A DNA stretch of 64,000 bases from an uncultured Pseudomonadota bacterium (lineage in GTDB: Bacteria > Pseudomonadota > Gammaproteobacteria > Methylococcales > Methylomonadaceae): the NCBI GenBank assembly GCA_903834465.1, contig CAILJB010000091.1, forward strand, positions 1-64,000. The letters run 5' to 3'. The notes beneath the pieces were generated by a model that searched no databases, had not been told where the DNA came from, and saw nothing but the letters and a program-made list of their open reading frames with translations. The translations under genes and the position numbers were made by a program. Numbering within the stretch: the stretch's first letter is position 1; each line of letters begins with the position of its first letter. Positions 24,946-28,043 of the stretch are shown here, in pieces.

Positions 24946-25287
24946 ATGCCTTATGTCAAACTGAACACCAATGTTGAAATCGCGGATAAACCTCAGGTTT
25001 TGCGTCAACTTTCGCAATTGTTAGTCAAAGAAACGGGTAAACCGGAATCGTATGTGATGGTTGAAATCGCGCATAATCCGAACATGTTGTTTGCTGGCAA
25101 AGATGCGCCACTTGCTTATTTGGAATGTAAAAGTATTGGTTTAACGGAAAAGCAGGCGAAGGCGTTAAGCGCGTCGCTGTGTCAATTACTCAATGCCGAA
25201 TTACACATCCCGTCGGATAGAATTTATATTGAATTTAGCAATGCCCCTGCGGCGTTTTGGGGTTATAACGGTTCTACGTTTGGTTAA
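24946..25287 (+). CDS. MIF-family (phenylpyruvate tautomerase-like) protein
   Basis: A 113-residue tautomerase-superfamily protein of the macrophage migration inhibitory factor branch. It starts MPYVKLNTNVEI with the catalytic N-terminal Pro after Met removal, has SYVMVEIAHNPNMLFAGKD and the C-terminal IYIEFSNAPAAFWGYNGSTF. It should form a trimer with keto-enol tautomerase activity; the bacterial role is unclear. The ribosome site is TTGAGG. It is followed by a strong terminator. Confidence 0.9.
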   Translation: MPYVKLNTNVEIADKPQVLRQLSQLLVKETGKPESYVMVEIAHNPNMLFAGKDAPLAYLECKSIGLTEKQAKALSASLCQLLNAELHIPSDRIYIEFSNAPAAFWGYNGSTFG

Positions 25288-25304
25288 ACGTTTAAGCTAC
25301 ATAG

Positions 25305-25334
25305 AAAGGCGATGTTTTTGGCATTGCCTTTTTT
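25305..25334 (+). terminator. Intrinsic terminator after the tautomerase gene
   Basis: AAAGGCGATG and CATTGCCTTT pair (one G-T) around TTTTTGG, followed by TTTT. It is one of three related terminators in the window sharing a GCGATG-T5-NN-CATCGC core (also at 28.9 and 30.1 kb). Confidence 0.85.
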
Positions 25335-25420
25335 AAATAATTAGTTTTAGTTTGTTTCTCAATAAGTCCAATCTCGAATCCAATGTGCAAGCAGCTAAAA
25401 GTGTCGTTTCAGTTAAGTTA

Positions 25421-25473
25421 AAATAAAAACGGTTTTTATACAATTCGCCGTAATTTTTCTACGGTAAACTTAA
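25421..25473. repeat. Nested inverted repeats upstream of the ATPase gene
   Basis: An outer pair GTTAAGTT / AACTTAAC (25422-25429 and 25466-25473) encloses a smaller hairpin CCGTA-N7-TACGG (25448-25452 and 25460-25464). It lies 64 bp before the ATPase start, in an otherwise featureless gap after the tautomerase terminator. It could be an operator for self-regulation or a leader RNA structure; no promoter hexamers were convincing. Confidence 0.4.
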
Positions 25474-25536
25474 CATTTTAACAATAGCTTGCTACACTGA
25501 ACGCTCTTATGTTTTATTTCCAGTCATACTATTATC

Positions 25537-26658
25537 ATGCTTACAAAATTTGAGGTTACTAATTTCAAAAGCTTTAAAGAAAAGTTTACTTTTGATTTTA
25601 CCAATACTAGCGATTACCAATTCAATACGGAATGTGTAAAAAATGGTATCACTAACAAAGGTATGATTTACGGGGCTAATGGTTCGGGGAAATCTAATTT
25701 GGGTTTAGCAATCTTTGATGTTGTCTCGCATTTAACAGATAAAAATTTTAAAAAAGCATATTACAAAAATTACTTAAATGGAAATAATCTCAAAGAGGAA
25801 TTAGCAGAATTTAGTTACACTTTTAAATTTGGAGAAAACAAAATTGAGTATTCTTACGGAAAATCAGACACAGATACATTAGTTTATGAAAATTTAATAA
25901 TCAATGATGATCAAGTTATCCGATTAGACCGCAGAAATAGCAACGAGGCATTTATAAATATTTTAGGAGCTGAAAATCTAAATACAGATATGGGACAATC
26001 AAAAATATCAGTTATTAATTATGTCAAAAATAACACTGTTCGCACTGCTAACATTATAAATACTGTATTTGATTATTTTACAGATTTTATTGATAACATG
26101 CTGTTTGTTAAAACTTTAATGGGCAATGAAATCTATTATTTAGGATTGGAAAAATTTACTGGCGACATTATTACCGACATTGTAGGGCATAATAATCTTC
26201 GAGATTTTGAAAAATTTCTTAACGATGCTGGGATTGAATGTAAATTAAAAACGATTAAACAAAATGGAAGGCTTGATCTATTTTTTGTTTTTAATGAAAA
26301 GAATATGCCGTTTTATGACGTTGCATCTACAGGTACACAATCACTAACATTGCTTTACTTTTGGTTGCAACGATTAAAAGAAAACAAACAAGTTTCATTT
26401 GTATTTATTGACGAGTTTGATGCCTTTTATCATCATGAATTGTCAGAGACTGTTGTGAAACAGCTAAACAAAATTGATGCACAGGTTATTTTAACCACAC
26501 ATAACACCAGTATCATGTCGAATGACTTATTAAGACCTGATTGTTATTTTTTAATGACGAAAGAAAAAATAAAACCCCTGAGTCAATGTACAGAAAAAGA
26601 ACTACGCTTTGCTCACAACCTTGAGAAAATTTATAGGGCAGAAGGTTTTAATGTCTAA
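25537..26658 (+). CDS. AAA family ATPase (AAA_15/AAA_21-like), defence-type
   Basis: A 373-residue ABC/SMC-like ATPase. It starts LTKFEVTNFKSFKEK, with Walker A GANGSGKSN near residue 48, a diverged signature region STGTQSLTLLYFW near 264, Walker B VSFVFIDEFDAF near 292, and a downstream His switch LTTHNTS. This layout occurs in ATPase partners of TOPRIM/RloB-type nucleases in phage-defence pairs (AbiL- and PARIS-like). The following gene encodes such a TOPRIM-like protein and overlaps it by 8 bp. Base composition is more AT-rich than the flanking core genes. The frame is intact. Defence is inferred from architecture, not shown. Confidence 0.85.
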   Translation: MLTKFEVTNFKSFKEKFTFDFTNTSDYQFNTECVKNGITNKGMIYGANGSGKSNLGLAIFDVVSHLTDKNFKKAYYKNYLNGNNLKEELAEFSYTFKFGENKIEYSYGKSDTDTLVYENLIINDDQVIRLDRRNSNEAFINILGAENLNTDMGQSKISVINYVKNNTVRTANIINTVFDYFTDFIDNMLFVKTLMGNEIYYLGLEKFTGDIITDIVGHNNLRDFEKFLNDAGIECKLKTIKQNGRLDLFFVFNEKNMPFYDVASTGTQSLTLLYFWLQRLKENKQVSFVFIDEFDAFYHHELSETVVKQLNKIDAQVILTTHNTSIMSNDLLRPDCYFLMTKEKIKPLSQCTEKELRFAHNLEKIYRAEGFNV

Positions 26659-27451
26659 AGCTAAAGTTATTCTGTTTGTATTTGAAGGGGAAAAAACAGA
26701 GAAAAAAATCTTTGCATCTTTGCAAAAATACTTTTTAAATGAAAATGGGCATAGCGTTTTATGTGCAACTTTTAATGCGGATATTTATCAGCTTTATCAA
26801 AAACTAGAGCTAGGAAATGATGAGATTAGCATTGATTTGGTTGAAGAACTTAGAGCTAAAAATGAAATCGAACTAACTGGAATTGTAAGAAAGAATATTG
26901 CGGAAGTTTATCTTTTTTTTGATTACGATGGTCATGCCGCTAATTTAAATAAAACATTGCGTGCCAATGATGATCATTTAAAGGAAATGCTTAATTATTT
27001 TAATAATGAAACGGAAAATGGAAAGCTATATATTAGTTATCCTATGGTTGAAGCTATTAAGCATTTGAAAGAAAATGTTGATTTCCATGAAACGATTGTT
27101 GAAGCGAAAACAAATATTAAATATAAAAATTTAGTCAGCTAAAATTGTGATTCTGATTATAACCAAATTGAAAAACTAAAATTTGAACATTGGATAATAA
27201 TAACGCAAGAACATTGCAAAAAACTAAACTTTCTCGTGGCTGCATCTTATTCATTTCCTGAGGAGGTTTTTCATCAACTAGAAATATTTGATGCCCAGTT
27301 AGAAAAATATATCAGACCAGAAAATAAAGTTGCTGTTTTAAGTGCTTTTCCTGTGCTTTTGCTCGATTATTATGGAACAGAAGGACTTTATAATAAAATA
27401 TCTTCCCATTTAAGCACGAAGAAATCGGACAATGGGGATTACTGCGAGTGA
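26651..27451 (+). pseudogene. RloB-like / TOPRIM-fold protein gene with an in-frame stop
   Basis: The start ATG at 26651 overlaps the ATPase stop. The product begins MSKAKVILFVFEGEKTEKKIF and has the TOPRIM-like acidic motifs FEGEKTE and YLFFDYDGH. Translation meets a single TAA at 27140-27142 (after NLVS), giving 163 residues. The same frame then stays open through NCDSDYNQIEKLKFEHW and SAFPVLLLDYYG to 27451, so a single nonsense change (for example AAA to TAA) is the simplest explanation. A second disturbance near 27400 is possible because frame +1 carries a protein-like tail (EEIGQWGLLRVIERDF) to 27480. Alternatives are a sequencing error, or a truncated but functional protein. Confidence 0.75.
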
Positions 27452-27503
27452 TTGAGCGGGATTTTCCAACGGAATACAATCAATTGTTCTAAAAATTCAT
27501 CAG

Positions 27504-28043
27504 TCAATTTAACTCTCCAGCAATCAAAGTTAAAAACATCTTTTCGCTAATAATATCTTGGTTATTTTCCACGCGGTCTAAATAAACCAAACCGTTCAAG
27601 TGGTCGTATTCATGTTGGAAAACCCGTGCTACAAAATCCTGAAAATCAACGTCTAACTGCTGCCCATCCAAATCCGTATAACAAACGCGAATCGATGAAT
27701 AACGCGGCACTAATGCCCGAATACTCGGAATACTCAAACAACCTTCCCAGTCCTTTTCTATCGTATCCGTTAGCGGCGTAAATTCAGGATTTACCATCAC
27801 CGTTGCAGGCATTTCAGGCGCATAGGGATAACGTTTTGTGGGTTTAGACGCTACGATGATTAGACGTTTTGATTCAAAAATTTGTGGTGCAGCTAATCCC
27901 ACGCCGCCAGAATCTTCTAACGTGAGCAACATCGTTTGCGCCAATTCGCGCACGGCAAAATTTGTTGCATCGTCAATGGGCTGTGCAATTTGTCTTAATA
28001 CTGATTCGCCCAAAAGGGCAATTTCTCTGGTTTTCATTGGCAT
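27504..28043 (-). CDS. def: Peptide deformylase
   Basis: A 179-residue metallohydrolase removing the formyl group from nascent N termini. The three family motifs are present: GVGLAAPQI (about 49), EGCLSIPS (Cys metal ligand, about 107) and QHEYDHLNG (HExxH-type His ligands). No fmt gene is beside it, so this may be a second, stand-alone deformylase. The VF530 gene lies 9 bp upstream on the same strand. Confidence 0.95.
   Translation of the reverse strand: MPMKTREIALLGESVLRQIAQPIDDATNFAVRELAQTMLLTLEDSGGVGLAAPQIFESKRLIIVASKPTKRYPYAPEMPATVMVNPEFTPLTDTIEKDWEGCLSIPSIRALVPRYSSIRVCYTDLDGQQLDVDFQDFVARVFQHEYDHLNGLVYLDRVENNQDIISEKMFLTLIAGELN

Follow-up and report, generated by a model that had tools for sequence, protein, structure and literature searches.

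A PDC-M12 ATPase/RloB-like gene pair with an interrupted second gene and a candidate operator ahead of its ATPase gene

ATPase/TOPRIM-like protein pairs have been described as a sensor combined with an effector. The locus at positions 25537-27451 of the window (the whole stretch of 64,000 nucleotides analyzed here, from a draft genome of 2.82 Mb in 135 contigs) comprises two such genes on the same strand, gene A for the ATPase and, behind it, gene B for a nuclease-like protein with a stop codon in its frame. The locus thus raises the question of what has become of the pair and, by virtue of a dyad ahead of gene A, how the dose of such a pair is set and by which protein. In our assessment, this is probably a PDC-M12 pair in which B was cut by a young nonsense codon, with the likely loss of the weapon, and in which the dyad is the pair's own operator. 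The broken B makes this one more defence pair that keeps its ATPase without the effector; the operator candidate outweighs the broken gene in importance.

An intact ATPase gene and an interrupted partner

Gene A (25537-26658, + strand; ATG at 25537, TAA at 26656-26658) encodes an ABC/SMC-like ATPase of 373 aa with the motifs GANGSGKSN and FIDEFDAF. An earlier note had taken this ATPase to be intact, which is borne out by a full-length match to the PADLOC profile PDC-M12A (E 2.7e-152, residues 1-372 on profile positions 1-368 of 369). Among the Pfam families, A matches AAA_21 (74.7 bits, cut-off 27) and SMC_N (57.5 bits, cut-off 40), the latter a class of DNA-associated ATPases, and the top PDB neighbours of its AlphaFold2 model (pLDDT 88.9) include Rad50, SMC and retron PtuA. 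A protein search of the window's own genome revealed no further match to A at E 0.001, and family profiles run on this genome yielded further ATPase matches, all weaker than A; no close second copy of the pair was found in it.

Gene B (26651-27451, + strand) overlaps A by 8 nt. Its first ATG is at 26651, with AGAAGG (26640-26645) 5 nt ahead, whereas 26609 is a merely mechanical TTG start of the frame. The in-frame TAA at 27140-27142 separates a first part of 163 aa (26651-27142) from 102 open codons behind it (27143-27451). The open frame alone is weak proof of a single gene, given that the window has 52 open stretches of 150 codons or more and that 7 of them continue in frame for at least 102 open codons. 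We consider the two parts to be one interrupted gene because homology is found on both sides of the stop: the first part matches the PDC-M12B profile PDLC04430 at positions 6-160 (E 1.8e-55) and the part behind the stop matches it at positions 163-244 of 251 (E 8.6e-25). The pair in the window is a broken member of PDC-M12, with B interrupted. The single TAA in an otherwise open frame, as previously noticed, is therefore confirmed at the same coordinates, and the PDC-M12 matches likewise sustain the view of a two-gene ATPase and RloB-like pair that belongs to a family of defence candidates.

The description of B as RloB/TOPRIM-like is weakly supported by Pfam: the RloB match of the first part (E 9.4e-5, 23.1 bits) falls under the cut-off of 31.5, and among 49 homologues of B, at E 0.01, RloB is detected in 15 and Toprim in one. 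At the same E, AbiLii is matched by 12 of the 49. The conserved acidic residues of B (E12; D91 and D93; E134) all lie ahead of the stop and fit a putative TOPRIM-like metal site; a TOPRIM nuclease would be expected to carry an acidic Glu and a DxD on a Rossmann-like core. The predicted B of a relative (L034) forms one alpha/beta domain (pLDDT 93.0). With this model, Foldseek detected no solved neighbour at E < 0.001, and VIA gave a best Z of 4.3, which may reflect merely a common arrangement, with no close solved relative among the listed matches; by sequence, the solved relatives were just Csm1/Cas10 matches, at E 0.017 and above.

The stop site corresponds to residue 158 of the L034 model, five residues behind an invariant lysine and close to where a short helix (152-159) ends, not in a linker. 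The stop deprives B of 102 of 266 codons, over a third of the protein, which in L034 numbering hold the long helices 172-191 and 203-218, the short strand 220-222 and the helices 226-235 and 237-248. From the model, we infer that the 163-aa product does not fold as B does. The presence of all four acidic residues ahead of the stop would suit a short B that is stable and active or dominant-negative, so that the system works in an altered way; the loss of one strand and four helices from a domain predicted at such a high pLDDT makes this quite improbable.

To see which residue normally stands at 27140, the stop column was inspected in 93 full-length homologues of B (87 distinct), that is, those in which one open frame reaches from profile position 25 or lower to position 209 or higher of 244. 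Varied residues occupy this column in 92 homologues and a gap in one; none of them stops there because the selection for full length rules such stops out. The homologues are 220-360 aa long, 92 of them at most 272 aa. Endings near NLVS, the alternative under which B would be naturally short, are not the rule, judging by the PDC-M12B profile and these 93 homologues.

Of 79 other non-redundant sequences, at least 80% agree in 19 columns behind the stop, all 19 of which are kept in the window; ahead of the stop, the window keeps 33 of 35 such columns. The identity ratio between the C-terminal and N-terminal parts of B ranks 58th of 80, where the lowest rank denotes the most decayed. An old stop followed by a decaying tail was ruled out on these two counts. 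With its C-terminal part undecayed, the stop is either very young or an error. The latter option, under which the stop is absent from the organism, B is whole and the TAA stems from a base error in sequencing or assembly or from a minority strain, would be in keeping with the intact state of the part behind the stop and with a draft of 135 contigs. However, polished drafts seldom contain single-base nonsense errors, and a real lesion is unsurprising because 11 of 96 related loci, records not marked as MAG included, are without an intact B. We thus regard an error as unlikely and a young nonsense mutation as the preferred reading. An exact search of IMG/VR with a 29-mer of B ahead of the stop, for a second copy from the population, gave 0 matches.

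Recurrent loss in related loci and origin of the pair

Searches with A as bait confirmed 535 genome loci, of which the best 80 were taken, along with 17 viral loci; family members and plasmid and phage records were added, and loci duplicated under other identifiers and loci sharing the 3' stretch of A were dropped ahead of the count. Of the resulting 100 distinct loci, 96 were assessable, after setting aside three at contig ends (L061, L077, L108) and one with N in B (L064). A gene was counted as intact when one open frame spanned profile positions from 8 or lower to 355 or higher of 370 for A, and from 25 or lower to 209 or higher of 244 for B. By this definition, both genes are intact in 82 loci, A is intact and B broken or absent in 11, and A is broken and B intact in 3. 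Because bait A favours intact A genes and ranks broken ones lower, the ratio of 11 to 3 does not tell whether B or A tends to be lost first, and we make no claim that losses of B outnumber those of A; reciprocal searches (IMG/VR; 369 genomes) yielded too few new loci.

The lesions of B are diverse. A single stop is present in the window and in Myroides pelagicus SM1T (L044), two stops in L041, a frameshift in a sponge symbiont (L008), an internal deletion in L056 and an internal deletion with a frame change in L063; in L082 and L106 all of B is gone except for its first part, and in L055, L075 and L115 no B is recognisable. Records not marked as MAG are among these, namely, Myroides (L044), Pasteurellaceae (L106), Leucothrix (L075) and Arachidicoccus (L055). 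Since the lesions differ in both site and kind, they point to recurrent loss, and not to recoding or to a B that is naturally in two parts. A natural end of the homologues at the stop was rejected as an explanation, with 82 of the 96 loci intact and the others ending or breaking at other places.

The conservation of the C-terminal part would also be expected if the stop were recoded or read through, as the earlier note had considered, or if the two parts of B acted as two peptides. This is hardly credible: A, in the same operon, itself ends in TAA; the lesions of relatives are at other places and of other kinds; the genome is without a second match to B; no Rfam family reaches its gathering score in 25200-27600; and no ribosome-binding site was seen, by eye, before the first in-frame start behind the stop, GTG at 27236.

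Two further features were observed among the broken genes. The frameshift of L008 (at 1880-1975 of that locus) lies near an A7 run, where slippage, an error or a programmed shift is possible, and the deletions in L056 and L063 leave in place ~25-45 residues at the start of B and the conserved block nearest its end (VLS..P...DY.G-like).

Within the window's own lineage, a search with B in 201 genomes of the family (control 0/14) and a search with A in 311 genomes of the order converged on the same 7 genomes with the pair. Four of these carry it intact (G030, G100, G113, G126), B is broken in the window's genome (G000) and in G075, and A is broken in G008; two broken B genes versus one broken A gene in seven are too few to call B lost first. 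In the G008 locus (L278, G008:C2:1024800-1030500), B is open and 237 aa long, and the first ~34 residues of the broken A and the dyad were not found; repeat copies with ends like GGCTACCAACTTAAGACGGGACA occur there in both orientations, in and ahead of the broken A.

The pair was probably acquired horizontally, given its low GC content (0.294 for A and 0.301 for B vs. 0.410 for the window), its distribution in the genus (a strong match to A in 1 of 18 genomes, the next best at E 3e-18) and its occurrence on plasmids and phage elsewhere. It is found as cargo of 4-kb plasmids of Raoultella and E. coli and of a 10-kb filamentous phage of Vibrio (L010, L016 and L015), and occupies a large share of these records. 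An empty site was not found in the sister genomes, where the tautomerase and deformylase genes have other neighbours in the readable loci. A different frame (27418-27492), which covers the end of B and runs past it, reads EEIGQWGLLRVIERDFPTEYNQLF followed by a stop; it looks like the 3' end of another gene, perhaps cut on the arrival of the pair, and the neighbours of deformylase in five relatives offered no explanation for it.

The dyad ahead of gene A

Upstream of A, and outside the coordinates 25537-27451 covered by the earlier note, there is a 17-bp dyad, CCGTAATTTTTCTACGG (25448-25464), of the form CCGTA-(A/T)7-TACGG, with exact arms. It was first seen by reading the upstream stretches of the window and of L008 and was then tested on all loci. 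Of 106 loci, 97 have CCGTA-n-TACGG with at most one mismatch in the 300 bp ahead of A, compared to a mean of 2.1 in letter shuffles. Among 93 distinct PDC-M12A loci, obtained by dropping loci that share the first 60 residues of A, 84 have the dyad at most 160 bp before A (70 of them with exact arms), compared to 1 of 93 when the same stretches are read backwards; the distance to the ATG of A has a median of 50 bp and a range of 34-92. Intact pairs with a perfect dyad include those of L034 and of L012 (Acinetobacter lwoffii pZS-2). Two loci that were unused in discovery (L138 and L156) both carry the dyad, whose end lies 46 and 50 bp upstream of A, respectively. As for the misses, L010 and L016 have two mismatches, L006 has an exact-arm copy further upstream and L046 is cut by the contig end; the other five of the 93 (L049, L057, L061, L066 and L095, three of them Campylobacterota) are without the dyad for no evident reason and, therefore, the pair can do without it.

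According to record titles, the hosts of the dyad include Bacteroidota, gamma-, beta- and zetaproteobacteria, Campylobacterota, Bdellovibrionales, Phycisphaerales and Delongbacteria, and a Fusobacterium record has it as well. The consensus extends to ~TGCCGTA-W7-TACGGCA, with the outer positions at 50-67% and with CG and TA in their place in the window. While the ATPases of these loci are 40-62% identical to A of the window, this element of 17-21 bp is near-invariant across many phyla and could, thus, serve as a DNA tag to find and type PDC-M12 loci. Counted over all bait loci without removal of duplicates (1.08 Mb), exact-arm copies number 82 in the 150 bp ahead of A and 3 anywhere else. The window's own genome has 3 exact-arm sites, among which an A/T-rich centre is confined to the copy at 25448-25464. 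AbiLi-type loci of the same class, where the 450 bp before the Walker A region were examined in 29 usable loci out of 30, have no dyad (0/29, vs. 97/105 of the M12A loci by a like yardstick). In IMG/VR, the exact 17-mer is present in 69 stretches, and by hmmsearch it is followed by an M12A ATPase in 5 of them; the remaining products of at least 150 aa behind the 17-mer appear, by eye, to be ordinary phage genes.

The centre of the dyad, tallied in 84 loci, is a T-tract in 47, an A-tract in 33 and mixed in 4, i.e. the element occurs in both orientations, which suits a protein binding double-stranded DNA, not an RNA hairpin. In the window, a sigma-70-like promoter, TTAACA-17-TACACT with TG before the -10 element (25470-25498, + strand), lies wholly behind the dyad and starts 5 bases after it; the consensus scan that identified it found 1 such site vs. 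1.2 expected in shuffles and is weak on its own. The promoter box consensus of Bacteroidota is TAnnTTTG. In the Bacteroidota loci, assigned by hand from record titles, this box is present behind the dyad in 35 of 41 (1.75 in shuffles), and in 33 loci it lies 14-22 bp behind it (0.41 in shuffles; the range was chosen after seeing the offsets), so that in most of these loci the dyad covers the -33 promoter position. For the 27 other loci, from Proteobacteria and Campylobacterota, considered without a control set, the best TAnnnT falls 14-22 bp downstream of the dyad in 16 and outside this range in 11. Overlap of the dyad with the -35 element is therefore not general, because the register is loose outside Bacteroidota and the window's promoter is wholly behind the dyad.

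The question is then which protein would read the dyad. Across six annotated records, the pair has no recurrent third gene next to it and, hence, the reader would most simply be A, B or an A-B complex. We see about even chances that the ATPase, by itself or jointly with the TOPRIM-like protein, recognises a specific DNA sequence and thereby regulates the promoter from which it is expressed. As for the dyad in damaged pairs, among the 11 loci without an intact B, it has exact arms in 8, one mismatch in L008, and one mismatch along with a shorter centre in L041 and L055, and among the 3 loci with a broken A, it is kept in L090 and L129, with none seen in the G008 stretch. Retention after the loss of B fits A as the reader but is no proof because the losses may be young.

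Reading by a host factor, or a role as a recombination or insertion site or as an RNA hairpin, instead of as the pair's own operator, is possible but doubtful. In its favour, no classical DNA-binding domain scores above the Pfam cut-off in A or B, and a regulator-like gene is found near the pair in 2 of the 6 annotated records (an HTH gene in L010 and a LysR-type gene in L012); nevertheless, a single regulator common to hosts of many phyla seems unlikely, and the A/T-centred pattern, which cannot match the window's own copy, has 0 occurrences in the 18 genus genomes. Exact-arm copies are nearly confined to the stretch before A, and hence the pair is not flanked by a second copy. The hairpin is at odds with the two orientations, and the location of the dyad at the promoter in most Bacteroidota loci further speaks against this reading.

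The scenario that we prefer, with the dyad as the pair's own operator, can be outlined as follows. A would be translated together with B, and in intact pairs, by analogy with AriA/AriB, it would sense infection and hold B, a putative metal-dependent nuclease that might arrest growth once released. In the window, a young nonsense mutation would have removed over a third of B, including a strand and four helices, and the cell would keep the ATPase and the operator candidate, the weapon being probably lost. The dyad at 25448-25464 would serve the pair as the operator for control of its own promoter, with A or the A-B complex as the most likely reader. Such autoregulation would resemble that of toxin-antitoxin operons, with an ABC-type ATPase in the antitoxin role; if this is true, a sensor that keeps its effector in check would at the same time determine how much of itself is made.

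Comparison with known defence systems

The best models for A, over its full length, and for both parts of B belong to PDC-M12, a candidate two-gene system of PADLOC, from which the window differs in that its B is interrupted. A literature search by name found no experimental paper on PDC-M12, and strings of the dyad sequence had no match in the literature searched. PDC systems are referred to as unvalidated candidates in PMC12988326, and two others, PDC-M63AB and PDC-S04, gave no defence when tested in a native host, according to PMC12409345.

The earlier note had likened the pair to AbiL and PARIS; AbiL is the nearer of the two, and PARIS appears to be a relative by analogy alone. PARIS (AriA, an ATPase, and AriB, a TOPRIM tRNase) shares with the window pair the plan of an ATPase and a TOPRIM-like effector. 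According to PMC12409363, AriA is a hexamer that holds AriB, and the released AriB cleaves tRNA. The criterion for an AriA-type ATPase (AAA_15 or AAA_21) admits A via AAA_21, the model being a general one, and the annotation of the Vibrio phage labels the homologue of A as Paris_II__AAA_21; AriA itself appears among the sequence matches of A solely at E 0.044. DUF4435, which PARIS detection requires according to PMC9122126, is absent from the Pfam matches of B (E up to 1) and of the 49 homologues (E up to 0.01), and therefore the pair is not PARIS by PARIS's own definition. The same paper reports that deletion of either PARIS gene was non-toxic and abolished defence, which leaves it uncertain whether cost drives the loss of B.

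Two other systems are alike in one respect each. The NetFlax pair D29/D44 (an AAA antitoxin with an RloB-like TOPRIM_OLD toxin) consists of the same kinds of proteins, a likeness by description alone; PMC10440598 lists the D44 (RloB-like TOPRIM)/AAA pair as validated by neutralisation of toxicity in E. coli and terms its role in phage defence speculation. PtuA of Septu and retrons has a fold like that of A (Foldseek E 4.1e-11 to PtuA of retron Ec83), whereas its partner is an HNH nuclease (PMC12409363), in contrast to the RloB-like B of the window pair.

AbiL (the ATPase AbiLi and the RloB-like effector AbiLii) has the same gene order and kinds of genes as the window pair. AbiLi matches A at E 1.3e-40 over 231 of 326 profile positions, which is a good match but not the best one, and AbiLii matches the first part of B at E 4e-5; the 29 usable AbiLi-type loci are without the dyad of the M12A loci. 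PDC-M12 is, as far as we found, a catalogued family that is untried by experiment, and the operator candidate ahead of its ATPase gene is a new feature.
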